Source of the DNA: Jiangella asiatica
GTDB lineage: Bacteria > Actinomycetota > Actinomycetes > Jiangellales > Jiangellaceae
Reading direction: 5' to 3'
DNA: 63,419 nucleotides
Assembly: GCF_004349065.1 (NCBI RefSeq)
Contig: NZ_SMKZ01000039.1
Span: 1-63,419, forward strand
The notes below the pieces were generated by a model. That model was given only the letters and a program-made list of their open reading frames with translations, was not told the origin of the DNA and searched no databases. Shown here one piece after another: positions 7,231 to 47,630 of this stretch. A program made the position numbers and the translations under genes. Within the stretch, counting starts at the first letter, position 1, and every line of letters begins with the position of its first letter.

Positions 7231-7343
7231 CCGCAAGGATGGCCGGGTCCGTGTCGAAGCACGCTCGCGTTGCAGGTTCCGATCTGGTGGTCCTAATGTG
7301 CTCCGGCATGGTTGAGATGATCTGAGGTGGGGAACGCACTTCG

Positions 7344-27195: not shown

Positions 27196-27804
27196 CTAGG
27201 ACGCGTGCCGGGTGGCGTCGCCGGTCTCCGCCGTGTCGGACGCCGCCGTGTCGGACTCGCCGGTCGCCGAGAACGGGAACGTGGAATCGCCGGCGCGGGC
27301 TTCGACGGTGTCGACCAGCTTCAGATCGGCCTGGGTGTGCAGGACGGCCGCCTCGATGGTCAACGCGGCCAGGGCGTCGTGGTGGTGCGTGCGCCGGCTC
27401 GCCCGCAGCGTCTGCAGCTCAGCCAGCCGCGCTTCGCGCTGGATGCGGCAGACTTCGCGCACGGCGTCCGGCCCGCGGCGCCCGGCGGCGAGGATCTTGA
27501 GGATGAAGTCGTCGCGGTAGCCGGAGGTGCGCGTGGTCGGCGCGGAGAGCCACTCGTCGAGGTCGCTCTGCCCGGCTGAGGTGATCAGGTAGACCGTGCG
27601 GTCCGGTCGCGACTCCTGCGGCACCGTGTGCGAACTGACCATGCCGTCGCGATGCAGACGATCGAGGATCTGGTAGACGTGCCCGATGTTCAGCCCGCCC
27701 CACTGCGGCCCGACGGCTTTCTCGAAGTTCGCCTTGAGCTCGTACCCGTAGCTGGGACCGTCGGCCAGCAGGGCGAGAACAGCATGCTGAAGCGGCACTC
27801 TCAC
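27196..27804 (-). CDS. PadR-family transcriptional regulator
   Basis: The 202-residue product begins VPLQHAVLALLADGPSYGYELKANFE, the PadR winged helix-turn-helix, continuing GHVYQILDRLHRDGMV as recognition helix and YLITSAGQ as the wing. The C-terminal half is a helical dimerisation domain, then an acidic Thr/Ser-rich tail. PadR proteins usually repress nearby transport or stress genes; the obvious neighbours are the orphan substrate-binding lipoprotein on the same strand and the divergent TrmB-like regulator. The start is GTG 27804. No clear operator palindrome lies in the 107 bases upstream. Confidence 0.9.
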   Translation of the reverse strand: MRVPLQHAVLALLADGPSYGYELKANFEKAVGPQWGGLNIGHVYQILDRLHRDGMVSSHTVPQESRPDRTVYLITSAGQSDLDEWLSAPTTRTSGYRDDFILKILAAGRRGPDAVREVCRIQREARLAELQTLRASRRTHHHDALAALTIEAAVLHTQADLKLVDTVEARAGDSTFPFSATGESDTAASDTAETGDATRHAS

Positions 27805-27911: not shown

Positions 27912-28928
27912 ATGTTGGAGGAGCTCGGGCTGTCGCCGACGGCCGCCGCGGTCTACGGCTTCCTCGTCACGACGCCGTCCGTGAGCGGCTCCGACGTCAC
28001 GCGTGCGCTGGAACTCGACGACGAGGCCGTAGCCGCCGCCCTGGCGGAACTGGCCGGGAGCGCGCTGGTCAGCCCGGCCGACATCGGCCAGGAACGCCGG
28101 TGGACCGCGGTCCCGCCGCTGCTGACCGGCCAGCGGCTCCTGGTCGACCGCGCCCGGCGGCTCTTCGCGGCCCAGCAGGAGTTGCTGGCGCTGGCCGAGG
28201 TGCACGAGCGGAGCGCCCGCGCCGGCGGGTCGGAGCACCTGGTCGAGGTGCTCCTCGGCGAGCAGGCGCTCCGTGCCCAGGTCAGGCGGCTGCAGGAAAG
28301 TGCGTCCGAGGAGATCCTGGCCCTGGTGAAGCCGCCGTTCGTGGCCGTGCCGCCGGCCGAGGCGGCCGCAGGTGTCACACCGCGACACAGCCGGGTGGTG
28401 TACGACCGCGCCGTCTTCGACGACGTGCCTGACCTGCCAGCGGTGCTCGAACGCACCGGCCGGCCCGGCGACCACTACCGCGTGCACCGTCGTGTGCCCA
28501 TGCGCCTGCAGGTTTACGACCGCCGGGTGGCCACGCTGCCGCTGATGCGCCACGACGCGCAGCCGGCGGCCCTGGTGGTGCATGCCAGCGGCCTGCTGGC
28601 GGTCGTCATCGAGCTGTTCGAGGCGGTCTGGGACCAGGCAGCACCCCTGCCGGCCGGCCAGGAACCCGTCGACGGCGACGTTCTCGCGACCGGCGGCGCG
28701 CTCGGGTTCGAGGACCGCCGGCTGCTCGGCCTGCTGCTCTGCGGCCTCACCGACGCCGCGATCGCCCACCAGCTCGGCCGCAGCACGCGTTGGGTGCAGC
28801 GAAGGGTTCGGGTCATGTCCGACGCCGCCGGCGTGCGAACCCGGCTGCAGCTGGGGTGGGAGGCGCGTCGGCGCTGGTGGCTGGACGGTACCGGGGTCAC
28901 GGCTGGGCAACCCGCCAGGCCCGAGTGA
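27912..28928 (+). CDS. TrmB-like regulator with degenerate LuxR-type C-terminus
   Basis: The 338-residue protein starts MLEELGLSPTAAAVYGFLVTTPSVSGSDVTRAL, a TrmB-like winged helix-turn-helix. The middle domain is of unknown ligand. The end (FEDRRLLGLLLCGLTDAAIAHQLGRSTRWVQRRVRVMSDAAG) is a LuxR-type helix-turn-helix. Such two-headed regulators are common in actinomycetes and often sit by secreted proteases. Here its 3' end overlaps the convergent subtilase gene by 32 bases. AGGGAGGT upstream of ATG 27912 is a perfect ribosome binding site. The palindrome at 32834-32863, in the subtilase promoter, is a candidate target. Confidence 0.78.
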   Translation: MLEELGLSPTAAAVYGFLVTTPSVSGSDVTRALELDDEAVAAALAELAGSALVSPADIGQERRWTAVPPLLTGQRLLVDRARRLFAAQQELLALAEVHERSARAGGSEHLVEVLLGEQALRAQVRRLQESASEEILALVKPPFVAVPPAEAAAGVTPRHSRVVYDRAVFDDVPDLPAVLERTGRPGDHYRVHRRVPMRLQVYDRRVATLPLMRHDAQPAALVVHASGLLAVVIELFEAVWDQAAPLPAGQEPVDGDVLATGGALGFEDRRLLGLLLCGLTDAAIAHQLGRSTRWVQRRVRVMSDAAGVRTRLQLGWEARRRWWLDGTGVTAGQPARPE

Positions 28929-31900
28929 TCGTCTGGTCGACGGAGTTCCCGTCGCCGTCGGTGGCCAGGACCCGGACGGTGGTGAACTCGGCGCCCTCAC
29001 GCGGCGGACGTACCAGGAACGTCGCGTCGCCATCCCGCCCGGCTGGCCGAGTGCCCAGCTCGGTCCAGGTGGCCCCGTCGTCGTGGCTGACCCAGGCCTG
29101 GACGGTGAAGTCACCGATCTCGGTGTGCTCGGGCTGGTAGCCGGCGGTCACGGTGAGCCGGTAGGGCGTGCCGGCCCGGACCGCGTTGGTGCCGTCCAGC
29201 GGCACGTCGTAGTCGAGTGCGATGGCCGGCAGCGGCTCGTCCGGCCGGTCGAAGGCCGCTGCGACGTCCCAGACGGTCCTGGTCGCGGTGGAAATCGGCC
29301 GCCTGGACTGCTGCGTCTCGACCTCCAGCTGGTACCGGCCCGGCACCGGGTCGACGTAGCACCCGGAGTTGAACTGGCTCTCGCACAGTGGTTCGCCGTC
29401 GCGGCGGTACCGGACGTCCACCGCGCCGAAGGACTGCTGCAACGTGAACCACGGCGAGGTGACGAACGGGAACCCGGACATCGACAGATAGCTGGTGCCG
29501 CTGAGCCGGTGTGCGCTCAACGCGTCGATCCGGGGCGCGAGCGGCGCGGCCAGGTGCTGCTCCGTGACGTGCTCGCCCGCCTCGTAGACGGTCCGCCTGT
29601 CGGCCTCCACGCCGTAGTAGTGCTCCGCTGAGAACGTGGTGGTGCGCCACCAGTGACCGGGCGTGATGTACTCGGTCCGGGTGTGCGGCGCCTCGAACGC
29701 CGTGGAGCGGGCGGAATGACCGAGCGGGCACCCGGTCGCGCCCAGGCCGACGCGCGACTCGCGGTAGACCGTGCCCGGTGCGTCGGCGGCGTACTCGGCC
29801 GTGATCGTGGCCAGGTCGTCATGGTCGAACGTGTAGGCCGGCTCCGACGGCAGCCGTCCCGTGTCCGTCACACACAGGTCGTACACGTACGGGCTGACGA
29901 TCTCGCCGCCGGTCCTGATGGTGGTCGCGCCGCCGGCGATCGCCGCCGCCAGCTGGTCGCCTTCGGCCGCGGTGATGACCGCCGCCGGCACCTCGACTCG
30001 GTCTCGGATCCAGCGCTGCGGCGGGCCAGGGTCGGCAACGGCGTACAGGATTCCCGCCACTCCGGCGTCTGCCGCGGCGGCCAGGAACTCCCCCATCGCG
30101 ACGCTGTCCCGCGGCGTCGCCTCATGCACCAGCGCCAGCCGGCCGGCCGCCGCGGCGAGCTGCGCCGGCGACCCGGAACCGGCGTCGACCAGCTGGTAGC
30201 TGCCCGGCGAGTCGAAGGCGGGCACACACATGATGTGACCCGCGACGTTGCAGCCGCTGACGTCGCTCGTACCGGAACGGAGATACTGCGGATCCAGTGC
30301 CGGTGAACCGGAGCCGGGAACGGTCATCGTCAGGTCCTCGGCGGCCAGCCTGGTGCCGACCGTGAGCGAGAACTCGCCGATGGTCGCCTCGCCGGTGGGG
30401 ATGACGTAAACCGTCGGCACCCTGGAGAACGTCTCCTGAACGCGCAGATCCTCGTACCCGGGCTCGCCCAGCACCCGGCGCCAGGTCGCGTCCATCCCCG
30501 GCTGGACCGGCTCGGCATCGGACCGCGGTCCCTCGATCGTGACCGGAATGCCGTCCCGGGCATCGATGAGGAGGTCGGTGTCCCGGTCGAGCAGCAACTC
30601 GGGATCGCCGCCGAGGGTCTCCGACACCAGCGCCCACGGCTCGCCCGCGGTCCAGTCGGAGATGTTGCTGAGCACCGCGTAGCGCCCCTCCGGCAGCAGG
30701 GTGTTGTATCCGAACCCGGCGAAGTAGGCGCGTCCCTCGTCGTACCAGCCCAGGTGCGCCGTCGCGGTGTCGAGGTTGATCAGGGTCAGCCAGGAGCAGC
30801 ACGTCGTGTGCGCCGGCGCGCCGGTGCGGTCGATGCCGCTGACCGTGAGCTGATGCCGCTGCGGGCTCCTCGTCCAGCTGAGCGTGGTGCTGGCCAGGAG
30901 GTCGCCGCCGGCGCGGGCCTCCAGCCGGCCGAAGTAGGAGGCGAGCTCGAAGGCGGTGGTGTCGACCGTCACCTCGACGGCAGCGGTGCCGCCGGCCGGG
31001 ATCTGCACGCTCGACGGCGTGACGGTGACGGCCCCGTCGGGTGGGGTGAGCGGGGTGACGTCGCGGCTGGTCGGGTCGGTCCGGATCAGGCCGGCGAGGG
31101 CGAGGTCGACGGGTAGCGGCGCGCCGCTCGTGTTGCGCAGCGTGACGATGCCCGTGGTCGCGGTGTGCGGCGGCTCGATCGCGCCGAGGTTCAGCGTGCC
31201 GGTCGCCACGAGGGGTCCGGCAGTGGCGCGGGTGACGTCGAGCATGCCGGCGCCCTGTGCGGTGACCGGTGCTTCCGCGTGCGGGTTCGCGGTGCTGACC
31301 AGGGCGTCCTTCAGCTGTCCTGCCGTCCAGTCCGGGTGCTGCTCAGCCACCAACGCGGCGGCGCCCACGACGTGCGGGGTGGCCATGGAGGTGCCGGACA
31401 GGCTGGTGTAGTGGTCGTCGACGGGCGCGCCGATGACCCCGTCGGTCGCGCGCGCGGCGACGATGGCCTCACCGGGGGCGGTGATCTCGGGTTTGACCGC
31501 GTAGTCGCTCAGCCGCGGCCCCACACTCGAGGAGTCCGACAGCTCGTGCGGGGCGGTCTTGGCGGTGTTGCCGACCGCGAGCGCACTGTCCGCTGTCGCC
31601 GGCGTGCCCACCTGCATGGTGCCGCCGGTCCGGCCGCTGTTCCCGGCGGCGACGACGAACAGCGCGCCGGTGGCCGCGGTCAGCTCGTTCACCGCCCGGG
31701 ACATCGGGTCCGCGCCGTCGGTCGGGGCGCCGTTGAGGCTCAGGTTGACGACGTCAGCGTCCTGCTCGACGGCTGCCCACTCCATCCCGGCGATGATCGC
31801 CGACGTCGGGCAGGTGCCATCGGCGGCGCAGACCTTGCCGATGGCCAGGTCCGCGCCGGGGGCGACTCCGATGTAGGTGTCGCCGGCGCCGGCAGCGATG

Positions 31901-32760
31901 GACGCGACATGCGTACCGTGCCCGTTGAGATCGTTGGTCGGCTCGCCGGTGACGAAGCTCCGGCTGGCCGTGATGCGGCCGGCGAAGTCCGGGTGGTCCG
32001 CGTCGATGCCGGTGTCCAGGACCGCGATGGTGGTACCGGTGCCGTCGTAGCCGCTCTCCCAGGCCGTCGGCGCGCCGATCGCCGGGACGCTGACGTCGAG
32101 CGCGGTCCGGACCTTCGCGTCGAGCCACAACGTGACCGGCGCCGCGGTGTCGCCGGTCCGGGTGGCGGTGCCGGTGGCGGCCTCGAGGTTCCCTGTCAAG
32201 TCGGCCCAGACCTCCTCGACGCGGTCCTTGTCGATCGTGAGAGCCGTGGCGCCGATGCTGTCCAGGGGCTGGACGACCGCCGCGCCGTCGACGGCGAGAG
32301 CGGAGGTGGCCGGTCCGGACCGGGAGCCGGCCGGGGCGGTGGCGATGACCGGCAGCGCGTCGACGCCCGCGTCGTCGTAGCCGTACTCGGCCAGCGCGGT
32401 CAAGTTGAACAGCTCCCGGTCCAACCATCCGGTTCCGATGAGCCGCACGGCCTCTCCGGTGAGCGCGTAGAGGTCGTCGTCGACCTGCTGGAACACGACG
32501 TCGTCCGGTCGGCCGGCATCGTGGATCACCTCGCCGTGCGGCGTGCCGTCCGGGAGGCTCCGCAGGCGGACCACGTCGCCGGTGAGCAGCGTGAAGTCGA
32601 GGGCCGGGCCAGCGTCGGCGGTTGGCACGGCTGCCGGCGGCGCCGCGCCGGTGGGAGAGACGACGCCGAGAGCGGCGGTGCTGGCGGCGGTGCTGGCGGC
32701 GAGTCCAGCGGCCATCAGGCGGCGTCGACGTCCGGTGCGGGTCGAGGATCGTGGCGACAC
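28897..32760 (-). CDS. Large secreted S8 subtilase
   Basis: This 1287-residue protease has a signal peptide (RRRRLMAAGLAASTAASTAALG), a propeptide of about 200 residues, and the triad D249 (VLDTGIDADHPDF), H281 (GHGTHVAS) and S458 (LSGTSMATPH). A long C-terminus of 800 residues has PA-like and immunoglobulin-like segments. The GTG at 32760 is chosen because GGAGG lies five bases before it; a longer frame has no support. It is divergent from the peptide cassette (start 32958), with a strong palindrome between. A role in maturing exported peptides is possible by analogy with leader-cleaving subtilases, but general extracellular proteolysis is as likely. Its 3' end overlaps the TrmB-like gene by 32 bases. 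Confidence 0.9.
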   Translation of the reverse strand: MSPRSSTRTGRRRRLMAAGLAASTAASTAALGVVSPTGAAPPAAVPTADAGPALDFTLLTGDVVRLRSLPDGTPHGEVIHDAGRPDDVVFQQVDDDLYALTGEAVRLIGTGWLDRELFNLTALAEYGYDDAGVDALPVIATAPAGSRSGPATSALAVDGAAVVQPLDSIGATALTIDKDRVEEVWADLTGNLEAATGTATRTGDTAAPVTLWLDAKVRTALDVSVPAIGAPTAWESGYDGTGTTIAVLDTGIDADHPDFAGRITASRSFVTGEPTNDLNGHGTHVASIAAGAGDTYIGVAPGADLAIGKVCAADGTCPTSAIIAGMEWAAVEQDADVVNLSLNGAPTDGADPMSRAVNELTAATGALFVVAAGNSGRTGGTMQVGTPATADSALAVGNTAKTAPHELSDSSSVGPRLSDYAVKPEITAPGEAIVAARATDGVIGAPVDDHYTSLSGTSMATPHVVGAAALVAEQHPDWTAGQLKDALVSTANPHAEAPVTAQGAGMLDVTRATAGPLVATGTLNLGAIEPPHTATTGIVTLRNTSGAPLPVDLALAGLIRTDPTSRDVTPLTPPDGAVTVTPSSVQIPAGGTAAVEVTVDTTAFELASYFGRLEARAGGDLLASTTLSWTRSPQRHQLTVSGIDRTGAPAHTTCCSWLTLINLDTATAHLGWYDEGRAYFAGFGYNTLLPEGRYAVLSNISDWTAGEPWALVSETLGGDPELLLDRDTDLLIDARDGIPVTIEGPRSDAEPVQPGMDATWRRVLGEPGYEDLRVQETFSRVPTVYVIPTGEATIGEFSLTVGTRLAAEDLTMTVPGSGSPALDPQYLRSGTSDVSGCNVAGHIMCVPAFDSPGSYQLVDAGSGSPAQLAAAAGRLALVHEATPRDSVAMGEFLAAAADAGVAGILYAVADPGPPQRWIRDRVEVPAAVITAAEGDQLAAAIAGGATTIRTGGEIVSPYVYDLCVTDTGRLPSEPAYTFDHDDLATITAEYAADAPGTVYRESRVGLGATGCPLGHSARSTAFEAPHTRTEYITPGHWWRTTTFSAEHYYGVEADRRTVYEAGEHVTEQHLAAPLAPRIDALSAHRLSGTSYLSMSGFPFVTSPWFTLQQSFGAVDVRYRRDGEPLCESQFNSGCYVDPVPGRYQLEVETQQSRRPISTATRTVWDVAAAFDRPDEPLPAIALDYDVPLDGTNAVRAGTPYRLTVTAGYQPEHTEIGDFTVQAWVSHDDGATWTELGTRPAGRDGDATFLVRPPREGAEFTTVRVLATDGDGNSVDQTITRAWRVAQP

Positions 32761-32833
32761 GTCGTCCTCCAAGGTTGCCAGGGGATAGCTGGAGTCTGGG
32801 CAGCACGCCACCGCGGGCGGAAGGGCGGCGCGG

Positions 32834-32863
32834 GTCGCAAACGCGACGATTCGCTTTTGCGAC
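32834..32863. promoter_or_regulatory. Thirty-base palindrome between divergent subtilase and peptide-cassette genes
   Basis: GTCGCAAACGCGA (32834-32846) and TCGCTTTTGCGAC (32851-32863) pair with 12 of 13 matches around CGAT. It is 74 bases upstream of the subtilase start and 95 bases upstream of the ABC ATPase start, so one factor could govern both. The TrmB-like regulator next to the subtilase is a candidate binder. Confidence 0.6.
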
Positions 32864-32957
32864 ATCGCCGTGCAACGCCCGGAAGGCGGGAGAGACCGAA
32901 AGATGAGAAACTGCACCCGCTCGTTTGTTCCGGCGAGCCGAAGGTCATGATGATCAC

Positions 32958-33746
32958 ATGAGACGCCGCAGTCACGGCGATGCTGTGGACGGACGGTCGG
33001 GGGGCCACGACCGGTTCGCGGGTGCACCCGTTTCGCTACGCAACGTGTCGCGCCTGCACCGGCAGGGCGCCGCGAAGGTGCCGGCGCTGGTCGATGTCAC
33101 CCTGGACATCGAGGCCGGCGAGTCGGTGGCGGTGATCGGGCCGTCCGGGTCGGGCAAGTCCACGCTGCTGCACGTCATCGGCGCGATGGACCGGCCGGAC
33201 ACGGGCAGTGTGGTGGTCGGCGGGACCAGGGTCGAGCAGTTGTCCCGGCGTGCCGCCGCGGTGTTCCGGCGTGGTGTCGGCTTCGTCTTCCAGCACTATC
33301 ACCTGCTCCCGCAGCTGAGCGCGCTCGACAACGTCGTCGTGCCGTTGATGCCCGTGCAGGTCGACTTCGACCGCGTGCGGCGGGCCCGCGAGACCCTCGA
33401 CGCCGTCGGGCTCGGCGCGCGGCACGAGGCCCGCGTGGCCGATCTGTCCGGCGGGGAGCAGCAGCGGGTGGCCATCGCCCGCGCACTCGTCGTGCGGCCG
33501 CGGCTGCTGCTGGCCGACGAGCCGACCGGTGCCCTCGACTCGCGCACCGGTGACGAGGTGCTCGACCTGCTGGCGGAGGTCCAGGCCGACCAGGGCATGA
33601 CGATGATCCTGGCGACGCATGAGGCTGCCGTCGCGGCGCAGTGCTCCCGCGTGGTGAGCCTGCGCGACGGCGGCGTCGTCGGCGACCACCCGCTCTGGGA
33701 CCCGCGGCCCGACGAGACCCTGCGCCGCGCGACCGGTCTCGGCTGA
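32958..33746 (+). CDS. ABC transporter ATP-binding protein, LolD/MacB type
   Basis: The 262-residue ATPase has GPSGSGKST (Walker A), the Q-loop FQHYHLLPQLSALDNV, signature LSGGEQQRVA and Walker B LLLADEPTGALD. FQHYHLLPQLSALDNVVVPL is typical of the LolD/MacB/FtsE-type group, which works with FtsX-like permeases. A permease of that kind is encoded at the end of the cassette (36769), so the two likely form one transporter even though three other genes lie between. Start ATG 32958 is supported by the following MRRRSHGD stretch; the family fold begins near residue 20. A perfect 16-bp palindrome follows the stop codon. Confidence 0.9.
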   Translation: MRRRSHGDAVDGRSGGHDRFAGAPVSLRNVSRLHRQGAAKVPALVDVTLDIEAGESVAVIGPSGSGKSTLLHVIGAMDRPDTGSVVVGGTRVEQLSRRAAAVFRRGVGFVFQHYHLLPQLSALDNVVVPLMPVQVDFDRVRRARETLDAVGLGARHEARVADLSGGEQQRVAIARALVVRPRLLLADEPTGALDSRTGDEVLDLLAEVQADQGMTMILATHEAAVAAQCSRVVSLRDGGVVGDHPLWDPRPDETLRRATGLG

Positions 33747-33754
33747 TACGAGGT

Positions 33755-33770
33755 GAGCGGCGCGCCGCTC
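33755..33770. repeat. Perfect 16-bp palindrome after the ATPase gene
   Basis: GAGCGGCGCGCCGCTC is exactly self-complementary and starts nine bases after the ATPase stop codon. With no loop it cannot form a stable intrastrand hairpin end, but longer-range pairing or protein binding is possible. Confidence 0.4.
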
Positions 33771-33814
33771 GCAGGCGAACAGTCCGTGACAGTCGGTGCG
33801 GGCCCGGTGATTCT

Positions 33815-33831
33815 TACCTAGGCGCAAGGTA
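33815..33831. promoter_or_regulatory. Small inverted repeat upstream of the cysteine-rich peptide gene
   Basis: TACCT and AGGTA are spaced by seven bases, about 45 bases before the peptide start. A regulatory site is possible. With only 5-bp arms this is weak. Confidence 0.25.
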
Positions 33832-33876
33832 GAAAGGGGACATAGCGCCAGAAGTTCGACTCTCGGGGAGCATCGC

Positions 33877-34065
33877 ATGACCAGGACCCTCAGCGCGGCC
33901 GTGAAGTCCGTGTTCGCACCTACCATCGCCCTGCGGGACTGCCCGCCCGACTGCCGGTACGAGTACATGTGCGACGCCAACGGCCGGTACTACCGGCGCC
34001 AGTGCTGCTTCCGCCCGGACTGCGTGTACGTCTGTGAGTCCTGGACCCTGATCGGCAGTTGCTGA
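33877..34065 (+). CDS. Eight-cysteine small peptide, candidate exported disulfide-rich product
   Basis: A 62-residue peptide: a leader-like region (residues 1-21, MTRTLSAAVKSVFAPTIALR) without a classical Sec hydrophobic core, then a core with cysteines at 22, 26, 32, 43, 44, 49, 53 and 62. The even number allows four disulfides; the core is rich in Tyr, Arg and Pro. GGGGAG lies six bases before the ATG at 33877, an excellent ribosome binding site. The next genes encode a MauE-thioredoxin fusion and an ABC exporter. I infer a ribosomally made peptide that is oxidised and exported. I do not recognise its family; toxin, signal or small-subunit-like roles are all open. No radical-SAM or lanthionine enzyme is nearby. 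Confidence 0.75.
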   Translation: MTRTLSAAVKSVFAPTIALRDCPPDCRYEYMCDANGRYYRRQCCFRPDCVYVCESWTLIGSC

Positions 34066-34092
34066 CCGGCGGCGTGGCGAGACGGTGACGAC

Positions 34093-34980
34093 GTGATCGG
34101 TTTCGTTGCCGAGGTGGCGCGCTGGGCGCTGGTTCTCGTGTTCGCGGTGGCCGTGATCGGCAAGGTGGCCCGGCCGGGCGGTGTGGCGGGCCTCGCCACG
34201 ACCCTGCGGGTCGGCTTGCGTCTGCCCCAGGCCCGCGCCGGGGCGTGGGCGCTGGTGGCTGCCGAGGCGGTCGTGGTGGTCCTGCTGGCCGTACCAGCGA
34301 CGGCGTCCGCCGGCCTGCTGGGGGCGGGCGCACTGGCAGCGGCGCTGACGGCCGGCGCCGCCGTGCTGGCGCGGCGGACGCAGGCGCTGCCGTGCCGCTG
34401 CTTCGGCTCGGCGTCGTCGACGGTGACCTGGGCCAGTGTGGTCCGCAACGCGGTCCTGACCGGGCTCGCACTCGGCGCGCTGGCGGTGCCCGAGATCGGC
34501 GACTCCGGACGGACGCCGGCCGCGCTGGCGACCGCCGCGGTCGTCCTGCTCGTCCTGCGCTGGCTGGCCCTTCGACCCCCGGCCAACGCGCCCGCCGGTG
34601 GCGAACCGGTGACGCTGCCGCCGAGTGGGCCGGACATCGGCGCCCCCGCACCGCGTGCCGCCGGCGGTGTCCGGCTCGTGGCGTTCGCCTCCGCGAGCTG
34701 CCGTGGCTGCCGGCTGGCGCTGCCCCGCCTGGTGGCGTACGCGACGGTGCTCGGCGGCCGGGGCACGGCGGTCGTGACCGTCGTCGGCGACCCCGCCGAG
34801 GCGGCGGACATCGTCGCGGCCGTGTCGGACGTCGCGAGCGTCGTGAGCGGGGCGCGTGCCGACGACCTGGCCGCCGTCTACGGCGTGGTGCTCTTCCCGA
34901 CGTACGTCCTCGTGTCCGGCGACGGGCTCGTCGAGGCGGTCACGCACTCCGTCGACGAGCTGCCGCGTCCGGTGCGGTGA
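34093..34980 (+). CDS. MauE-type membrane protein fused to a thioredoxin-like domain
   Basis: The N-terminal 160 residues have about five membrane segments (around 9-28, 51-70, 72-92, 113-133, 143-160) and the CRCFG motif (C101, C103), typical of MauE/DoxX-like redox proteins. The C-terminal part (about residues 185-295) is thioredoxin-like: C203-R-G-C206 and VLFPTYVLV with a cis-Pro candidate. In methylamine dehydrogenase biogenesis, separate MauE and MauD are required for the disulfide-rich small subunit; here both functions are in one chain. Its likely job is oxidising or proof-reading disulfides in the neighbouring eight-cysteine peptide. GTG 34093 is 28 bases after the peptide gene; its stop overlaps the next gene by four bases. 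Confidence 0.82.
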   Translation: MIGFVAEVARWALVLVFAVAVIGKVARPGGVAGLATTLRVGLRLPQARAGAWALVAAEAVVVVLLAVPATASAGLLGAGALAAALTAGAAVLARRTQALPCRCFGSASSTVTWASVVRNAVLTGLALGALAVPEIGDSGRTPAALATAAVVLLVLRWLALRPPANAPAGGEPVTLPPSGPDIGAPAPRAAGGVRLVAFASASCRGCRLALPRLVAYATVLGGRGTAVVTVVGDPAEAADIVAAVSDVASVVSGARADDLAAVYGVVLFPTYVLVSGDGLVEAVTHSVDELPRPVR

Positions 34981-36785
34981 CGAGTACGACCGCGGCCGCG
35001 GTCCGGGCGCTGGCCCTGATGTGGCGGGCGGCGCCTGGCTGGTCGGCCGGCTTCGCGGTGTTGTCGCTGGTGGCGGGCGTGGTGGTGCCGGTCAACGCGT
35101 GGTTGCTCGCCCGGGTGCTCGACGCCGTGACGACGCGGGGCGATGGCGTGGCCGCGATGCTCCTGCTGGGCGCCGTGACGGCGGGCGGCGCGGTCGTCGG
35201 GCCGGCGACCAGGTACGCCGAGGGCGAGCTGGCCCGACGGGTGGGGCTGCGAGCCAAGTCCACCCTGATGCGCGCCGTCACCGGCGTGACCGGCCTGGAA
35301 CTGTTGGAGCGGCCCGCCTTCCTCGACCGGCTGCGGCTGGCCGAGCAGGCCGGGGCGGGCGCGCCCCAGGTGCTCGCGCACGCGCTGTTCGCCGCTGTAC
35401 AAGCGATCGTCACGGCCGCCGGGCTGGCGCTCGTGCTCGCCGCGGTGGGCCCTTGGCTGGTCCTGGTGACGGCGGCCGGCTGCGTCCCCGCCGTCGTCGC
35501 TGCCGTAGCCGAGAGCCGCGACCGGGCCCGGATGATGTGGCAGACCACTCCGGGCACCCGGCGCGAGATGTTCTACGCGACTCTGCTGACCGACGCCCGG
35601 GCGGCCACCGAGATCCGGGTCTTCGGCCTGGGCGGCCTGCTGAACGACCGGATGACGGCCGAGCTGCGGCAGCTCGCCCGGGCACAGCGCGCCGTGGACC
35701 GGCGCACCGCGGTGGTCCAGGCCGGGCTCGCGGTGTCCGGTGCCGGGCTGTCCGCGGCCGCCATGCTCTGGGGCGCCGGACAGGCAGCGGCCGGCCGGAT
35801 CACCGTCGGGGAACTGAGCATGCTGGTCGTCGGCGTCGCCGGGCTGCAGGTGGCCGCGGCCGGTGTCGTCCGGGCCTTCGGCGACGGCCACCACGGCGCG
35901 CTGATCTTCGCCCACCTGGACGCGGTACTGGCGAGCACCGCCGCGGAGAGTGTCCGGTCCCTGCGGCGGTCACTGCCGGCCGCCTCCCGGTCCGCCGGCG
36001 TCGAGCTGCGTGACGTGACCTTCCGCTACGCTGCCGGCCATGCGCCGGTCCTGCGTGGCGTCTCCTTCGCGATCCCGCCCGGTGCCATGGTCGCGCTGGT
36101 GGGAACCAACGGGGCCGGCAAGTCCACCGTCGTCAAGCTGCTGTGCCGGCTCTACGAGGCCACCAGCGGCACCATCCTCTGGAACGGCGACGACATCGTC
36201 GGACTGGACGCTCGGGCCGTGCGCCGGCGCATCGGCGTGCTGTTCCAGGACTTCGTGCGCTACGACCTTCCGGTGGCCGACAACATCGGCTTCGGCGACC
36301 TCGACCGGCTGGACGACGAGCCGGCGATCCGGCGGGCGGCGCGCCTGGCCGGCGTCGACGCCGTCGCGGAACGGCTGCCGCAGGGCTACGGCACCATGCT
36401 CAGCCGCGCGTTCGGCGGCACCGACGACGCCGACGGAGTGCAGCTGTCGGGCGGGCAGTGGCAGCGCGTCGCGCTGGCCAGGTCGCTGATGCGCACCGAG
36501 GCCGAGCTGATGATCCTCGACGAGCCCAGCTCGGGGCTGGACGCCGACGCGGAGGCCGCGCTGTACCAGCACCTGCGGACGGCCCGGGGCGGCCGGTCGT
36601 GCCTGCTGGTCACGCACCGGCTCGGCGCGGTCCGGCACGCCGACGCCATCGTCGTGCTCGCCGGCGGACGGGTGGCCGAGCAGGGCACACACGACCAGCT
36701 GCTCGCCGCCGGCGGCGAGTACGCGCGGCTCTACCAGATGCAGGCGGGCGGGTACGGGAGGCGTGCCGATGTGGCCGCCGGCTGA
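34977..36785 (+). CDS. Type I ABC exporter (membrane and ATPase domains fused)
   Basis: A 602-residue half-transporter: about six membrane helices in residues 20-320, then an ATPase with GTNGAGKST (near residue 375), LFQDFVRYDLPVADNI, signature LSGGQWQRVA (near 490) and Walker B LMILDEPSSGLD (near 512). The GTG at 34977 overlaps the MauE-thioredoxin stop by four bases. It lacks an N-terminal C39 peptidase, so any leader removal must be done by something else; the divergent subtilase is one candidate. The expected substrate is the eight-cysteine peptide, but lipid or drug export cannot be excluded. Confidence 0.9.
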   Translation: MTSTTAAAVRALALMWRAAPGWSAGFAVLSLVAGVVVPVNAWLLARVLDAVTTRGDGVAAMLLLGAVTAGGAVVGPATRYAEGELARRVGLRAKSTLMRAVTGVTGLELLERPAFLDRLRLAEQAGAGAPQVLAHALFAAVQAIVTAAGLALVLAAVGPWLVLVTAAGCVPAVVAAVAESRDRARMMWQTTPGTRREMFYATLLTDARAATEIRVFGLGGLLNDRMTAELRQLARAQRAVDRRTAVVQAGLAVSGAGLSAAAMLWGAGQAAAGRITVGELSMLVVGVAGLQVAAAGVVRAFGDGHHGALIFAHLDAVLASTAAESVRSLRRSLPAASRSAGVELRDVTFRYAAGHAPVLRGVSFAIPPGAMVALVGTNGAGKSTVVKLLCRLYEATSGTILWNGDDIVGLDARAVRRRIGVLFQDFVRYDLPVADNIGFGDLDRLDDEPAIRRAARLAGVDAVAERLPQGYGTMLSRAFGGTDDADGVQLSGGQWQRVALARSLMRTEAELMILDEPSSGLDADAEAALYQHLRTARGGRSCLLVTHRLGAVRHADAIVVLAGGRVAEQGTHDQLLAAGGEYARLYQMQAGGYGRRADVAAG

Positions 36786-39543
36786 CCCTCGGCAGCCCCG
36801 GCGGGCGCGCACGCGCGCCGGCATGGGCCGGCTGGTGCGGGCCGAGCTGCGCGCGCACTGGGGCCGTGCCCTGGCGCTCGGCCTCGGCGTTGTCGCGGCG
36901 ACCACGGCCTTCACCGTGCTCACCGGCGCCTCTGAGGTGGAGCGGCTGGAGCTGCGCGGAGAGGTCGTGGCGGCCCAGGACGACTATCACATCCTGGTAC
37001 GCCCGCCCGGCAGTCGCAGCGAGCTCGAGGCCGTGGCGGGCCTCGTACGGCCGTACCAGCTGTCCGGGCAGTTCGGCGGCATCGCGCTGGACGACTACGA
37101 CGCGATCCGCGAGCTCTCCGGTGTCGAGGTCGCCGCTCCGGTGGCCATGGTCGGCTACGTCATGACCGCGACCCAGGTGGCCGTCGAGGCCGGCCCGCGC
37201 GACGAGACCGGCCGCGAGCTACTCGTGGCCGACGTCGTACACACCACCGACCGCGGCCTGACGGCCATCGAGCAGCCGGCGGCGTCGTATTCCTACGTCA
37301 CCCCGAACCCGATCACGTTCGTCGGGCCCGCGGGCGACGACGCGGCGCCGTACGGCCTGGTCGAGACGGCGCCGGACGGGTCTACGACGCTGGTGTGCCC
37401 GGCGTGGCAGGACCTCGCGTCGGCCCCCGACGTGCCGGCGACCGCCGCCCGCGAGCGCAGCCGCACCTGCGAGTCCACTCAGCCCGGTCACGACGCCGCC
37501 GCTCGCCAGTGGCAGGCACCGGACCAGCGCACTGTCGTGGTCGAATGGTCGTTCCCGATGCTCGTGGCCGCCGTCGACCCGGCCCAGGAGGCGGCACTGA
37601 ACCAGGGGAGCGGCCAGCCCGCGTCACTGCTCGCGCTGGGCGACGCGCCACCGGCGAGCGGCACCGGCAGCCGGCCGGTCCCCGTCGTCGTCGCCGCAGA
37701 GCCCCAGGTGGACGCGCAGGCCGAGGTCACGGTGCGGGAGCTGCCCGGCGAGGCGGCCGACCGGCTGGCCTCCGGCCTCACCCTGGAGCAGGTGGGCGAG
37801 CTCCTGACCACGCCTGGCGCCGTCGTCGCCACCGAGACCGTCACCGCCCAGCAGGCCTACGAGGTGCTGGTCGAGCAGGCGCGCACCAGCGGCACCAACA
37901 TCGTCGTCGACAGCTTCTGGACGACCCTGCCCACGACCTACGACGTGGGTGCCGACGGCGTGCTGGCGCCGCGGCCGGTGGAGAACCCGTGGGACGTCTG
38001 GCGCTCGCCGCTGCGGGCCGGCGGCTACGTCCCCGCACCGCCGCTCGTCGCCGACACCGGCTTCCGCGAGGTGCGCCCGCATCCAGGCACCGCCTCGGGC
38101 CAGAGCCAGCTGCCGCAGATGCAGATCGTCGGCGTGTTCGACGACGTCGAGGCCGCCGAGTTCGACGGGGCACACGGACTGCCGCCGGCCGACGCGCGCA
38201 GCAGCGAACTGCTGGGCGGGGTGCCGCTGCTGCCGTCCGGGAGTCCCGCGGCCTATCACCTGGGCCCGCCCACGGCATTTATCCGACTGTCCGACCTCGA
38301 AACGTTCACCCGCTCCGGCATCGAGCTGGCCGAGCCCGACGCGCCGATCAGCGCGGTCCGGGTCCGGGTCGCGGGCGTCAGCGGGGTGAGCGCGGTCGAG
38401 CGGGAGCGGGTGCGCCTGGTCGCCGACCAGATCCGCGCCGCCACCGGCCTCGACGTCGACGTCGTCCTCGGCAGCTCCGCGACCGAACAGACCGTGGCAC
38501 TCCCGGAGGGCGCGTTCGGCCGGCCCGAGCTGGCGTTGGTCGAGACCTGGCTGCGCCAGGGGGTCGTCGCGGCGGTCATGCGGGCCGTCGACCACAAGAG
38601 CGTCGCGCTGTTCGTGCTGGTCCTGGCGGTCAGTGCGCTGTTCGTCGCGAACGTCTCCGCCGCGTCGGCCCGCTCCCGGCGTGGTGAACTGGCGGTACTG
38701 AGCCGCGTCGGCTGGAGCCGCCGCCACATCCTGCGGTTGCTGCTGACCGAAGTCATGCTGGTGGGCGGCGCCGCCGGGGTGACCGGCGCCCTGGTGTCGG
38801 TCGCGGTCGGCCGGATCAGCGGCCTGGACGTGACGGCGGACCGCGCTGCGGTGGCGATCCCGGCGGCGGTCCTGGTCGCGCTCGGCGCTGCCGCCTTTCC
38901 GGCCTGGCGCGCGTCCCGGCCGGCCACCGCCGCCGTCCTGCAACCCGGCGGGGTCCGGGTGCGCCGGATGGCGGCACGGGCTCCGACGGTACGCGGCCTG
39001 TGGTCGCTCGCCGTCGCCAACGTGGTCCGCTCGCCCGGCCGCACGGGCCTCGGCGTGGTCGCGGTGGCACTGGGCTGTGCAGCACTCACCGTCCTGCTCG
39101 GCATTACGGTGGCCTTCCACGGCGCCGTCGTCGGCTCGGTGCTCGGCGACGCCGTCTCGCTGCGCGCCCGGGAGATCGACTACGTGGCCGCGCTGGTCAC
39201 CGTCGCCCTGTCGAGCGTGGCCGTCGCGGACGTTGTCTTCCTGAACGTCCGCGACCGGCGGGCGGAGATCGCGGTGCTCCAGGCCGTCGGCTGGGGTGAC
39301 GGGCGGGTCCGGCGGCTGGTGCTGACCGAGGCAGCGCTGATCGGGCTGGCCGGCGCGGTCCTCGGCACCGTCGCCGGCCTCGTGCTCGCGGCCGGCTTGG
39401 CCGGCGAGTTCCAGCCCGAGCTGGTGGTCGTGGCCGTCACGACGGTGGCGGGCGGGACCGCGGTGCCGGTGCTGGCCAGCCTGGTCCCGGCCGCCGCGCT
39501 GCGCAGGATGACCGTCGCGACCACCCTGACCCGCGACGCTTGA
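36769..39543 (+). CDS. FtsX-like permease of a MacB-type transporter
   Basis: This 924-residue permease has one membrane helix near residues 25-45 (ALALGLGVVAATTAF), a very large outside domain of more than 550 residues, then FtsX-type helices at about 605-630, 660-690 and 705-725, and three more in the C-terminal part (about 750-920). Motifs RGELAVLSRVGWSRRHILRLLL and RRAEIAVLQAVGWGDGRVRRLVL are typical of the FtsX fold. ATG 36769 is favoured by GGGAG eight bases before it; the gene overlaps the exporter by 17 bases. It probably pairs with the LolD-like ATPase at 32958. MacB-like pairs often give peptide resistance or extraction, so self-protection is an attractive but unproven role. Confidence 0.85.
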   Translation: MWPPADPRQPRRARTRAGMGRLVRAELRAHWGRALALGLGVVAATTAFTVLTGASEVERLELRGEVVAAQDDYHILVRPPGSRSELEAVAGLVRPYQLSGQFGGIALDDYDAIRELSGVEVAAPVAMVGYVMTATQVAVEAGPRDETGRELLVADVVHTTDRGLTAIEQPAASYSYVTPNPITFVGPAGDDAAPYGLVETAPDGSTTLVCPAWQDLASAPDVPATAARERSRTCESTQPGHDAAARQWQAPDQRTVVVEWSFPMLVAAVDPAQEAALNQGSGQPASLLALGDAPPASGTGSRPVPVVVAAEPQVDAQAEVTVRELPGEAADRLASGLTLEQVGELLTTPGAVVATETVTAQQAYEVLVEQARTSGTNIVVDSFWTTLPTTYDVGADGVLAPRPVENPWDVWRSPLRAGGYVPAPPLVADTGFREVRPHPGTASGQSQLPQMQIVGVFDDVEAAEFDGAHGLPPADARSSELLGGVPLLPSGSPAAYHLGPPTAFIRLSDLETFTRSGIELAEPDAPISAVRVRVAGVSGVSAVERERVRLVADQIRAATGLDVDVVLGSSATEQTVALPEGAFGRPELALVETWLRQGVVAAVMRAVDHKSVALFVLVLAVSALFVANVSAASARSRRGELAVLSRVGWSRRHILRLLLTEVMLVGGAAGVTGALVSVAVGRISGLDVTADRAAVAIPAAVLVALGAAAFPAWRASRPATAAVLQPGGVRVRRMAARAPTVRGLWSLAVANVVRSPGRTGLGVVAVALGCAALTVLLGITVAFHGAVVGSVLGDAVSLRAREIDYVAALVTVALSSVAVADVVFLNVRDRRAEIAVLQAVGWGDGRVRRLVLTEAALIGLAGAVLGTVAGLVLAAGLAGEFQPELVVVAVTTVAGGTAVPVLASLVPAAALRRMTVATTLTRDA

Positions 39544-44544: not shown

Positions 44545-45798
44545 ATGACTGCCGTGGACCTCCGCACGCCGGGTGTCAGCACCGACGAACCGACCACCGG
44601 CGGCACGACGCTGCCGCCGCCGGTTCCGCCGGGGAGCCCGGAGGAGCCCCGTCGCAGCCTGGTGATGCTCCGGACATCGGACATCTTCGCCCTCGTCGGC
44701 GCGGCGGCCGCCGCGCTGGCGATCACCTTCCTGCTCTTCACCCAGTTGCTGCCGTTCGATGGCGCCATCGGATTCGTCGTCATCGTGTACATGCTGTTCC
44801 TCGCCATCTACGCGCTCCTCGTCTCGCTGGACGAGAACGGCCCCGCCGTTCGGGACAAGGTGGCGGCGGTGGCGATTCACGGGCTCGCGCTGCTGATGGG
44901 CGGCGGCCTGGTCTTCGTGGTGCTCTACGCCATCGGCCGCGGGCTCGAGGCACTGCCCTACCTGAACTTCTACGTCGAGGACCTGCGCGTCACCGGGCCG
45001 CTCGATCCTCTTGACCTGGGCGGCATCATCCACGGCATCGCGGGCACGCTGATCATGATCTCGATCGCGCTGGCCATCACCATCCCGCTGGGCATCGTCT
45101 GCGCGGTGTTCCTCAACGAGATTCCCGGGCGGTTCAGCCGGCTGGTCCGCACCGTTTCCGAGGCGATGACAGCGTTGCCGTCCATCATCGCCGGGCTCTT
45201 CATCTACGCCACCTGGATCATGGCGCTCGGGTTCGACCAGTCCGGCCTGGCGGCGGGCCTCGCCATCACCGTCATGATGTTGCCCATCGTCATCCGGGCC
45301 TCCGACGTGGTCCTGCGGCTGGTGCCCGGCACGCTGAAGGAGGCGTCGTACGCGGTCGGCGCCGGGCAGTGGCGCACGGTCTGGCACGTCACCTTGCCGA
45401 CCGCGCGCTCGGGGCTCATGACGTCGATCATCCTGGGCACCGCGCGTGGCATCGGTGAGACGTCGCCGGTGCTGCTGACCGCCGGCTACACGGCGGCGAT
45501 CAATCTCGACCCGCTGAGCGGCCCGATGGTATCGCTGCCGCTGCTTGTCTTCGAGCTGGTCAAGAACCCACAGCCGGACATGATCGCTCGCGGTTTCGGC
45601 ACCGCGGCGGTGCTCATGGTGCTGGTGCTGCTGCTCTTCGCGCTGGGCCGGGCGATCGGTGGCCGCGGGCCGGGCCAGCTCACCCGTCGTCAACAGCACC
45701 GCCGAGTCCTGGCGTCACGCCGCGACGCGGAACGGTTCCGATCCCGCGAGGCCGCGCGGCCACGGTTCGCGACGAACGAGGAAGGAAACACCCGATGA
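44545..45798 (+). CDS. pstA: Phosphate ABC transporter permease PstA, extended N-terminus
   Basis: The 417-residue protein has two extra membrane helices in an N-terminal extension (about residues 45-100), then the usual six. PstA motifs: ALPSIIAGLFIYATWIM, EASYAVGAGQWRTVWHVTLPTARSG, and GTARGIGETSPVLLTAG. It pairs with PstC. Its stop overlaps the next start (ATGA), so the PstS-like protein is translated in coupling. Typical PstA is near 290 residues, so the extension is a local feature. Start ATG 44545 follows AGGAG. Confidence 0.92.
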   Translation: MTAVDLRTPGVSTDEPTTGGTTLPPPVPPGSPEEPRRSLVMLRTSDIFALVGAAAAALAITFLLFTQLLPFDGAIGFVVIVYMLFLAIYALLVSLDENGPAVRDKVAAVAIHGLALLMGGGLVFVVLYAIGRGLEALPYLNFYVEDLRVTGPLDPLDLGGIIHGIAGTLIMISIALAITIPLGIVCAVFLNEIPGRFSRLVRTVSEAMTALPSIIAGLFIYATWIMALGFDQSGLAAGLAITVMMLPIVIRASDVVLRLVPGTLKEASYAVGAGQWRTVWHVTLPTARSGLMTSIILGTARGIGETSPVLLTAGYTAAINLDPLSGPMVSLPLLVFELVKNPQPDMIARGFGTAAVLMVLVLLLFALGRAIGGRGPGQLTRRQQHRRVLASRRDAERFRSREAARPRFATNEEGNTR

Positions 45799-47630
45799 CC
45801 CCGACATCTCCGCGCTGGACAGTACTGCGTTGGGTCGGCGGCCTCCTGGCTATCGCGCTGATCGCACAGGCCGTGATCACCGGCGCCGCGCGGGAGGCAT
45901 CGGCGGCGAGCTTCGTCCGGGTCTCGGGTTCCGGGTCCACCTGGAGTTCCAACGCCGTCGACGCCTGGCGAGCCAACGTCGAACAACAGGGCATGCGTAT
46001 CAACTTCTCGGCGAACGGCTCGTCCCAGGGCCGCACCCAGTTCAAGGAGGGCACGGTCGACTTCGCCGTGTCGGAGATCCCGTACGGTCTGCGCGACGGC
46101 AACGTGGTCGACGAGCCCCCGAGCCGTGGCTACGCGTACATGCCGATCGTGGCTGGTGGCACGGCGTTCATGTACAACCTGTCGATCGGCGGCCAGCGGG
46201 TGACCAACCTCCGGCTGTCAGGAGACGTCATCGCGAACATCTTCACCGGCCAGATCACGCACTGGAACGACCCGGCCATCGCCGCCGACAACCCGCAGCT
46301 GACGCTCCCGGCCATCCGGATCGTTCCCGTGGTCCGCTCCGACGGTTCCGGTACGTCGGCGCAGTTCACGGCGTGGATGCTCGACCAGCACCCGAACATC
46401 TGGGGCGCCTTCTGCGACCAGGCGGGCATGGACCCGTGCACGCAGACCTCCAGCTACCCGACCCTGCCCGGCTTGGGTTTCATCGGCCAGGCCACGTCCA
46501 ACGGCGTGGCCGGCTACGTGGCACGCGCGGAGGGTGCCATCACCTATGTGGAGTACTCCTACGCGCTGCAGTCGGGCTTCCCGGTGGCGAAGGTGCGCAA
46601 CGCCTCGGACTACTACATCGAACCGACGGATTATGCCGTCGCGGTGGGCCTGCTCGGAGCTCAGATCAACAACAATCCCGCCTCGGCTGACTACCTGACG
46701 CAGAACCTCGACAACGTCTACCGCAACCAGGACCCACGGGCGTATCCGCTGTCTTCCTACTCCTACATGATCCTGCCCACGGAGCTCGAGAGCGGGTTCT
46801 CCGAAGACAAGGGCCACACGCTGGGTTCGTTCGCCTACTACTTCCTGTGCGAGGGCCAACAACTGGCCGGGCCCCTGGGCTACTCACCGTTGCCGATCAA
46901 CCTGGTCCAGGCCGGCTTCGACCAGGTGCGCAAGATTCCCGGCGTCCAGGCGCAGAACATCGACATCGCCGGGTGCAACAACCCTACGTTCTGGCCGGAC
47001 GGCACCAACACGCTGGTCATCAATGCGCCGCAGCCGCCGGCCTGCGACGCGGTCGGCCCGACCCAATGCAGCACCGGCACCGGTGGTGACGACGACCCGA
47101 CGCCGCCGAACCCGCCCGGCGGCGGTGGCGGTGACGAAGGCGGCGGCGGAACCGACGGCGGCGGAACCGACGGCGGCGACGGTGGTGGTGGGACCGACGG
47201 CGGTGGTGGGACCGACGGCGGAACGGCCAGCGGCACGGATGGCGGCGGAACCGCGAGCGGCACGGACACCGGAACCGATACCGGCACCGCCAGCGGCACC
47301 GACGCCGGAACCGACACAGGAACCGACACAGGCACGGCGTCCGGAACCGACACCGGGACCGACACCGGCACGGACGCGGGAACCGACACCGGAGCACCGA
47401 TCATCGACCCGGAGACCGGCGAGATCGTCGGCGGCGACGGGACGGGCACGGACGGCGGCAGCCAGAACGTGGCGGCCGTACCGGTCTCGCTCCAGGCATC
47501 GTCGGGCTGGAGCTTCCAGCATTCCCTGATGGTGCTGGCCGGTGCACTGCTACTCGGCGTGGTGATCTGCCCGCCTGTCATATCCCGGGTCCTCGGGAAC
47601 CGTCACGAATCCTCTGGGAGGACGTCATGA
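45795..47630 (+). CDS. Membrane-anchored PstS-like phosphate-binding protein
   Basis: The 611-residue protein has a signal segment (VLRWVGGLLAIALIAQAVITGAA) and a PstS fold: SGSGSTWSSNAVDAW, SSQGRTQFKEGTVDFAVSEIPY, RSDGSGTSAQFTAW and ATSNGVAGYVAR. These fit phosphate binding. After residue 430 is a Gly/Thr/Asp/Ser-rich linker of about 100 residues, then a membrane helix (SLMVLAGALLLGVVICPPVI) and a short basic tail. Typical PstS is a lipoprotein, so the long flexible tether on a C-terminal membrane helix is a different way to fix it to the envelope. ATGA overlaps couple it to pstA and the next gene. Confidence 0.88.
   Translation: MTPTSPRWTVLRWVGGLLAIALIAQAVITGAAREASAASFVRVSGSGSTWSSNAVDAWRANVEQQGMRINFSANGSSQGRTQFKEGTVDFAVSEIPYGLRDGNVVDEPPSRGYAYMPIVAGGTAFMYNLSIGGQRVTNLRLSGDVIANIFTGQITHWNDPAIAADNPQLTLPAIRIVPVVRSDGSGTSAQFTAWMLDQHPNIWGAFCDQAGMDPCTQTSSYPTLPGLGFIGQATSNGVAGYVARAEGAITYVEYSYALQSGFPVAKVRNASDYYIEPTDYAVAVGLLGAQINNNPASADYLTQNLDNVYRNQDPRAYPLSSYSYMILPTELESGFSEDKGHTLGSFAYYFLCEGQQLAGPLGYSPLPINLVQAGFDQVRKIPGVQAQNIDIAGCNNPTFWPDGTNTLVINAPQPPACDAVGPTQCSTGTGGDDDPTPPNPPGGGGGDEGGGGTDGGGTDGGDGGGGTDGGGGTDGGTASGTDGGGTASGTDTGTDTGTASGTDAGTDTGTDTGTASGTDTGTDTGTDAGTDTGAPIIDPETGEIVGGDGTGTDGGSQNVAAVPVSLQASSGWSFQHSLMVLAGALLLGVVICPPVISRVLGNRHESSGRTS
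47110..47397 (+). repeat. Low-complexity Gly/Thr/Asp/Ser linker coding repeats
   Basis: Imperfect repeats coding GTDGG, then GTDTG and GTASGTD units run through the PstS-like linker. DNA units such as ACCGACACCGG recur. The repeated DNA makes the length likely to vary between strains. Confidence 0.7.

Follow-up and report, generated by a model that had tools for sequence, protein, structure and literature searches.

Disulfide-rich mini-proteins are well known in animals, plants and fungi, and to our knowledge few have been characterised from bacteria. Bacteriocins of the pediocin type pair an accessory thiol-disulfide protein, PedC, with an ATP-binding cassette (ABC) exporter for the disulfide-bonded bacteriocin. 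Laterosporulin is reported to have three disulfides (the title of its PDB entry calls it leaderless), and for actifensin both a leader and ABC genes are described. For disulfide-bearing lasso peptides, a DoxX-family protein and a thioredoxin-domain protein (SviE/SviF, HumE/HumF) are described beside the peptide and a transporter (PMC7168211, PMC9266682). The decRiPPter study (PLoS Biol 2020, PMC7794033) predicts three Streptomyces families of candidate ribosomally synthesised and post-translationally modified peptides (RiPPs) with MauE, one of them also with MauD, whose precursors have at least eight cysteines, and proposes that MauE modifies the precursor. Here we describe a cassette on 63,419 nucleotides of Jiangella asiatica DNA (contig NZ_SMKZ01000039.1, positions 1 to 63,419; the window hereafter), in which genes for a 62-amino-acid, eight-cysteine peptide, a MauE-thioredoxin fusion and an ABC exporter lie between genes for a LolD-type ATPase and an FtsX-type permease.

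A cassette gained and lost as a unit

Comparison of genomes shows that the peptide, MauE-thioredoxin and exporter genes behave as one unit, gained and lost together. We consider it likely, with good though not full confidence, that together they produce and export a disulfide-rich secreted peptide, which would be a RiPP of bacteriocin-like type modified by disulfide formation, and that LolD-FtsX protects the producer. The features are as follows.

27196..27804, minus strand: PadR-family regulator (Pfam PadR, 5e-16), divergent partner of the LolD-FtsX locus
32958..33746, plus strand: LolD/MacB-type ABC ATPase (Pfam ABC_tran, 5.9e-34), kept where the cassette is lost
33815..33831, plus strand: 17-bp palindrome TACCT-N7-AGGTA, candidate operator or promoter element 5' of the peptide gene
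33877..34065, plus strand: 62-amino-acid precursor with a leader of about 20 residues and an eight-cysteine core
34093..34980, plus strand: MauE-thioredoxin fusion (Pfam MauE, 1e-18), presumed disulfide oxidase of the peptide
34977..36785, plus strand: type I ABC exporter, transmembrane and nucleotide-binding domains in a single chain (Pfam ABC_tran)
36763..39543, plus strand: FtsX-type (MacB/LolE-like) permease (Pfam FtsX, 8e-23), partner of LolD and candidate self-protection transporter

A sequence-only reading of this DNA had proposed a five-gene cassette, and all five open reading frames (ORFs) were found where and on the strand it placed them. The tight packing it described for the last three genes also held: the GTG start of the exporter overlaps the stop of the fusion gene by 4 bases, and the permease start (36763) overlaps the exporter end (36785). 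The fusion carries a CRCFG motif in its MauE part and CRGC in its thioredoxin part, the thioredoxin half scoring below the Pfam cut-offs (AhpC-TSA, E 0.02). In the exporter, the ABC_membrane score is slightly below the Pfam cut-off and a Pfam scan found no C39 peptidase domain. The LolD ATPase has LolD/MacB/FtsE-type NCBIfam matches, all below cut-off; among the matches listed, no cassette protein reached an NCBIfam cut-off, and the 62-residue peptide has no Pfam match. Ten proteins encoded between 25390 and 41816 were scanned, and they included no lasso cyclase or leader peptidase and no other mau gene product of a methylamine dehydrogenase cluster.

Cysteine content alone is not evidence that the peptide ORF is a gene, because 4 of the 207 ORFs of 40–100 amino acids in this GC-rich window have at least eight cysteines. 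It is conservation that marks the ORF as a real gene. Across 22 genomes searched from the family, an intact peptide gene was found in 4 of 12 Jiangella genomes, at 55–66% identity, and a fifth keeps a remnant; one metagenomic relative came from a word-based search of 5.8 billion proteins. The eight cysteines are invariant across these five sequences (four Jiangella, one metagenome). The ratio of non-synonymous to synonymous substitution rates (dN/dS) was 0.29–0.63 over six pairs, and the third codon position was the most variable in 6/6 pairs of peptide genes. Furthermore, the upstream palindrome was present in all four cassette-bearing Jiangella loci and in none of the seven that lack the cassette (11 loci read), with a degenerate copy beside the remnant in genome G015. 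In the window it has one match at up to 3 mismatches, against 0.02 expected; it was not seen in the locus of G039, a genome discussed below. AlphaFold2 modelled the leader as disordered, with a predicted local distance difference test (pLDDT) score of about 50, and the core with four strands and block means of 78–94.

The sequence-only reading had suggested asking whether the peptide always co-occurs with the MauE-thioredoxin gene, and over the 22 genomes it does: the gene is present in the same four genomes as the peptide (4/22), and the peptide is accompanied by it in 4/4. MauE and thioredoxin are fused in all four Jiangella cassettes, and the CxxC of the thioredoxin half is retained in each copy. 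The FtsX gene is more widely kept. Of the 12 Jiangella genomes only G010 lacks it, and in the other 11 it adjoins PadR and LolD; across the 10 Jiangella loci other than the window, PadR is 79–89% and LolD 82–85% identical. No in-frame stop interrupts FtsX in any of the 11, although in G013 the gene reaches the contig end. In seven of these loci there is no working peptide, MauE-thioredoxin or exporter gene between LolD and FtsX. Pieces of the exporter gene survive in five of the seven, while two are clean, and G015 additionally keeps the frameshifted start of the peptide gene and its upstream region. In a tree of LolD, FtsX and PadR, the window lineage is the first branch and the cassette carriers are scattered. 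On this topology, the cassette was most likely ancestral in Jiangella and lost at least three times, with LolD and FtsX retained each time; the inferred loss groups are G015, G008 with G013, and G009 with G005, G012 and G014 (support 0.825 for the last).

A wider actinomycete family

Beyond Jiangella there is a widespread actinomycete family of predicted disulfide-rich secreted peptides that databases leave uncurated. Across 84,980 species genomes, a pattern scan yielded 58 named MauE loci, spread over Streptomyces, Nonomuraea, Microbispora, Planomonospora, Streptosporangium, Amycolatopsis, Actinomadura, Micromonospora and other genera. These were located by alignment of MauE from other genera; a scan with the window fusion alone gave none. 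A ten-seed precursor profile matches 50/58 of the loci, or 47/54 after removal of four contigs that supplied the MauE queries, three of which were also seed sources. At the same threshold, reversed and triplet-shuffled DNA gave no precursor matches. The sequence-only reading had named fusion or exporter homologues consistently lacking a nearby cysteine-rich peptide as the finding that would speak against it, and these 50 loci are the opposite. An exporter is present in 52/58, a thioredoxin-like ORF in 54/58 (by a profile built largely from the same loci) and an S26-like protein in 48/58 (two seeds; all four proteins submitted to Pfam matched Peptidase_S26). Among the loci missed by the precursor profile, L075 has an intact precursor and L128 a likely one (E 0.11); in L106, L117 and L129 an exporter was found and the profile found no precursor. 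In three Nonomuraea loci (L104, L119 and L120), a MauE protein belonging to this sequence family appears by reading to be encoded in a def/fmt/rpe/rib-type housekeeping locus, and no exporter, thioredoxin or peptide match was found there.

As a control, we used 28 of the 30 loci from a MauE search of the phylum, mostly generic MauE genes, setting aside the window and G039. Within about ±1.5 kb of MauE, a precursor was found at 0/28 of these loci versus 38/58 of the named loci, and an S26-like protein at 0/28 versus 7/58.

In 296 genomes, a profile built on the Jiangella MauE found nine loci outside the genus, in eight genomes. This profile missed at least G236, whose cassette emerged via FtsX, so the rarity of the cassette is poorly measured. 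Each of the nine class loci has an exporter homologue, 42–48% identical to that of the window, and all nine have an S26-like protein. A small cysteine-rich ORF with a common leader was read in eight of the loci, the ninth (L070) being on the same contig as L075; the L070/L075 precursor is intact, and its open frame was too long for the small-ORF filter, which missed it. In these nine loci, and in those of the 58 named loci that were read, MauE and thioredoxin are encoded separately, with a stand-alone thioredoxin gene in the corresponding place. L073 and L066 have the peptide and MauE on opposite strands.

The family leader has a median of about 24 residues and reads roughly M...L..L.DRLL.RLVP..A.A. 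In each of the 54 precursors found, the core is preceded by [AV]xA, a count to be read with the fact that the seeds carry the leader and [AV]xA and so favour such matches. The number of cysteines is even in 51/54 cores and is six in 43. The ten precursors tested all fall below the Pfam and NCBIfam cut-offs, and the source-named ones among 53 database relatives are called 'hypothetical' or 'uncharacterised', except one 'Bacteriocin'. The family therefore escapes annotation pipelines. L065 and L067 each have two or three adjacent peptide genes. In two Streptomyces loci, L102 and L105, a second, different precursor lies at about 11.4–11.9 kb, 5–6 kb from the first and beside S26, and there one machine may serve several peptides.

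The Jiangella cassette is best placed as a divergent branch of this family and not as a typical member. The CRCFG motif is invariant in 13/13 aligned MauE proteins, the window included, and all 67 cassette exporters, again with that of the window, fall in one clade with support 0.998 (8 paralogues from the same genomes lie outside it; the tree was rooted on one of these). Two observations weigh against membership: the general precursor profile does not match the window peptide (E 0.35 among four sequences), and the window leader ends in ALRD with no AxA site, with no S26 gene found in the 63-kb window or in loci L007–L010. Profile-profile comparison with 14 diverse precursors was weak (probability 3.9), a value reached by 12/300 decoys (5 and 7 of 150). 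For the CC subfamily, which was picked after looking, 1/300 decoys (0/150 and 1/150) matched as well as the window did.

As the general profile and the comparison with 14 diverse precursors failed, what ties the window peptide to the family is a bridging precursor in G039. The Jiangella peptide profile matched it in a 393-genome search (E 0.0037); it is 33% identical to the window peptide over 58 residues, leader included (pairwise E 9e-8). It directly precedes MauE, its cassette is complete (two thioredoxins, an exporter and S26), and it combines the family leader and AxA with a CPPDC...RxCC...Cx3CxSW core like that of the window. The Jiangella branch differs from the rest of the family in its fused MauE-thioredoxin, the absence of S26 nearby and of AxA, and its seat in a PadR-LolD-FtsX locus. 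The peptide profile matched 17 non-Jiangella genomes, and of the 17 loci scanned only the G039 match adjoins MauE. The others were taken as chance, three by ORF inspection and the rest by a 3-kb profile scan. Among the weak matches outside the genus, that in G020 (E 0.03, with an in-frame TGA) has no other cassette gene within its 20 kb, those in G156 and G363 lie on the opposite strand of an apparent ATP synthase alpha gene, and that in G099 lies opposite a 699-amino-acid frame.

A broader proposal, which we hold at about an even chance, is that these loci make up a large unnamed actinomycete class, in which a shared machine of AxA leader, exporter, S26, MauE and thioredoxin would serve varied cores of mostly 6–10 cysteines, with LolD-FtsX as a recurrent means of self-protection. 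Such peptides would be bacterial counterparts of defensins and knottins, and the Jiangella branch would have fused its oxidase and dropped S26 and AxA.

LolD-FtsX and the role of the peptide

In the proposed mechanism, the leader would direct the precursor to the ABC exporter and the MauE-thioredoxin fusion would oxidise the core on the outer face of the membrane. Outside Jiangella, the S26 protease would then cut after AxA, a step suggested by the joint occurrence of AxA and an S26 enzyme; in Jiangella another protease would have to cut, unless the leader stays on. The mature peptide would act on competing bacteria and LolD-FtsX would protect the producer.

Several points weigh against this scheme. 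In class I lasso systems, deletion of sviF (thioredoxin) or of mslE/mslF left disulfide formation intact, and loss of sviF affected peptide export (PMC9266682); the oxidase role therefore need not be essential. Thioredoxin also lies beside 9/28 generic MauE genes (versus 51/58 named loci), which makes the MauE-thioredoxin link less specific. In G011 (L008) the exporter reads in two frames, changing at about 7275–7283, near residue 411, so that only three of the four Jiangella cassettes have an uninterrupted exporter; this may reflect an error in sequencing or a cassette that has begun to decay. FtsX and peptide are both absent from G010, which may have lost the whole locus together. Finally, eight non-Jiangella loci with this FtsX type were found in the 296 genomes, and five of them have an adjoining PadR gene and no cassette gene, which implies some other use for the FtsX type too.

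The sequence-only reading had grouped all the genes into one dedicated route for oxidative folding and export. For the peptide, MauE-thioredoxin and exporter this is strongly supported, but LolD and FtsX are not simply parts of the export line, judged by their presence without the cassette in 7/11 Jiangella loci and, for FtsX, in 5/8 outside loci. Their link to cassettes is nonetheless probably functional, because it recurs with differing gene orders. The three remaining outside loci, in three genomes, carry cassette genes and no PadR match: L147 has every part, LolD and FtsX included; L145 likewise, except that no LolD was called; and L146 (G171) has precursor, S26, FtsX and LolD, with no MauE, thioredoxin or exporter match in 19 kb, making it either a decaying locus or one served in trans. 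In addition, L130 (Streptomyces sp. Ru72) has MauE, thioredoxin, exporter, S26, precursor, LolD and FtsX together. Self-protection of the producer is the simplest reading of LolD-FtsX, since the transporter outlives the peptide in the Jiangella losses.

Two alternatives deserve serious consideration, though we think each rather less probable than not by a clear distance. The first is that LolD-FtsX is an old, unrelated PadR-controlled locus into which the cassette merely inserted, in which case the losses would be uninformative on immunity. PadR-FtsX without cassette genes in the five outside loci is what this predicts, as is PadR-LolD-FtsX without an intact cassette in seven Jiangella loci; the peptide, moreover, has its own upstream palindrome, missing from the PadR-LolD gap. 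It does not readily account for the same FtsX type beside cassette genes in the other three outside loci, or for LolD and FtsX homologues beside the precursor in L130. Coincidence is harder still to accept if cassettes are as rare as they look (8 genomes outside Jiangella, of 296 in all), subject to the poor measurement noted above.

The second, similarly doubtful, is that the peptide is a developmental signal or a structural or metal-binding extracellular protein and not an antimicrobial. No dedicated small immunity gene was identified, and just 1 of the 53 database relatives was named Bacteriocin by its source. On the other side, the great diversity of cores beneath one leader type and machinery, the adjacent peptide genes in L065 and L067, and repeated cassette loss with LolD-FtsX retained form a bacteriocin-like pattern and favour an antibacterial role.

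That LolD-FtsX instead performs a second export or maturation step, a MacB-like extrusion of the oxidised peptide, seems improbable. LolD is first and FtsX last in the run, the exporter and FtsX genes overlap, and the MacB/LolD-type matches, though below cut-off, would fit. Most cassettes, however, have no FtsX nearby (a homologue in 1/58 named loci within the fetched flanks), and LolD-FtsX is retained after exporter and peptide are lost. That the 62-residue ORF is a chance frame, the MauE-thioredoxin protein serving other exported proteins, is scarcely credible: eight-cysteine ORFs are not uncommon in this GC-rich DNA, but the frame is conserved with invariant cysteines and dN/dS below 1 in 6/6 pairs, and the G039 homologue lies at the same place in another family.

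A shared machine accepting dozens of different cysteine-rich cores would yield antibacterial peptides and serve as a tool for making knotted ones. The family may supply defensin-like antibacterial peptides, with dozens of differing and apparently uncharacterised members across actinomycetes. The Jiangella loci, with the cassette lost and the transporter kept, are a natural experiment in which the immunity idea is directly testable.

Some neighbouring features were also noted. An insert separates PadR from LolD by some 5 kb in this genome, and within the gap (27912–33027) lie genes for a TrmB-like regulator, whose Pfam score is under the cut-off, and for a large S8 subtilase (28897–33027). The gap is 5153 bp here, 2857 bp in G006 and 148–235 bp in nine other Jiangella loci. 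The subtilase was rejected as a maturation protease of the cassette because the gaps in G011 (235 bp) and G007 (148 bp) cannot contain it. An anti-phage defence system was likewise rejected, PADLOC matching the ATPase and permease parts only weakly. An FtsX homologue in G004, a small genome of the same family as the window (2.3 Mb, 81% complete), has five in-frame TGA codons (L027, G004:C3:71438-74155), which may come from gene decay, from a faulty assembly or from TGA coding for an amino acid there. Elsewhere in the window, 45795–47630 encodes a probable phosphate-binding protein adjoining pst permease genes (named by reading alone), with a long Gly/Thr/Asp repeat ahead of a C-terminal membrane segment.

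Comparison with known systems

The pediocin type shares with the window cassette a dedicated thiol-disulfide protein and an ABC exporter, and differs in that the window exporter has no C39 match and a MauE membrane partner is present. The window exporter is likewise set apart from the double-glycine exporters of bacteriocins by the C39 peptidase domain that the Pfam scan did not find. With the defensin-like bacteriocins laterosporulin and actifensin the cassette shares a small cysteine-rich core. Foldseek ranked laterosporulin3 and laterosporulin as the top two matches to the window peptide model (E 0.21 and 0.22; probability 0.99), the match was not distinctive by VIA, and the window peptide had no sequence match in the PDB. 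For a second family member laterosporulin was not among the best 50 of 113 Foldseek matches, so that this fold, suggestive in the first model and not replicated, is kept as a lead only. Laterosporulin, a class IId bacteriocin, also has six cysteines and is leaderless, whereas the window peptide has eight and its core is preceded by a conserved N-terminal segment. The class I lasso clusters (sviceucin, humidimycin, MS-271) share a membrane protein and a thioredoxin beside a disulfide peptide and transporter. The window cassette differs in that the scan of ten proteins found neither a lasso cyclase nor a B protein, and its core has eight cysteines in about 40 residues, against a 21-residue threaded ring.

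The sequence-only reading knew of no described system with this set of genes. In its exact form, a MauE-thioredoxin fusion in a PadR-LolD-FtsX frame, we likewise found none described, and a literature search by title and abstract, with subscription papers and preprints largely outside its scope, gave no other account of the MauE-thioredoxin-ABC-S26 peptide family or its Jiangella variant. The decRiPPter study, however, already predicts MauE (and MauD) beside precursors of at least eight cysteines in Streptomyces (PMC7794033). The window cassette resembles those predictions in having MauE beside such a precursor. Compared by description, it differs in what the present loci add: S26, the AxA leader, the exporter clade and a recurrent LolD-FtsX link across many genera, together with a Jiangella branch that has a MauE-thioredoxin fusion and no S26.

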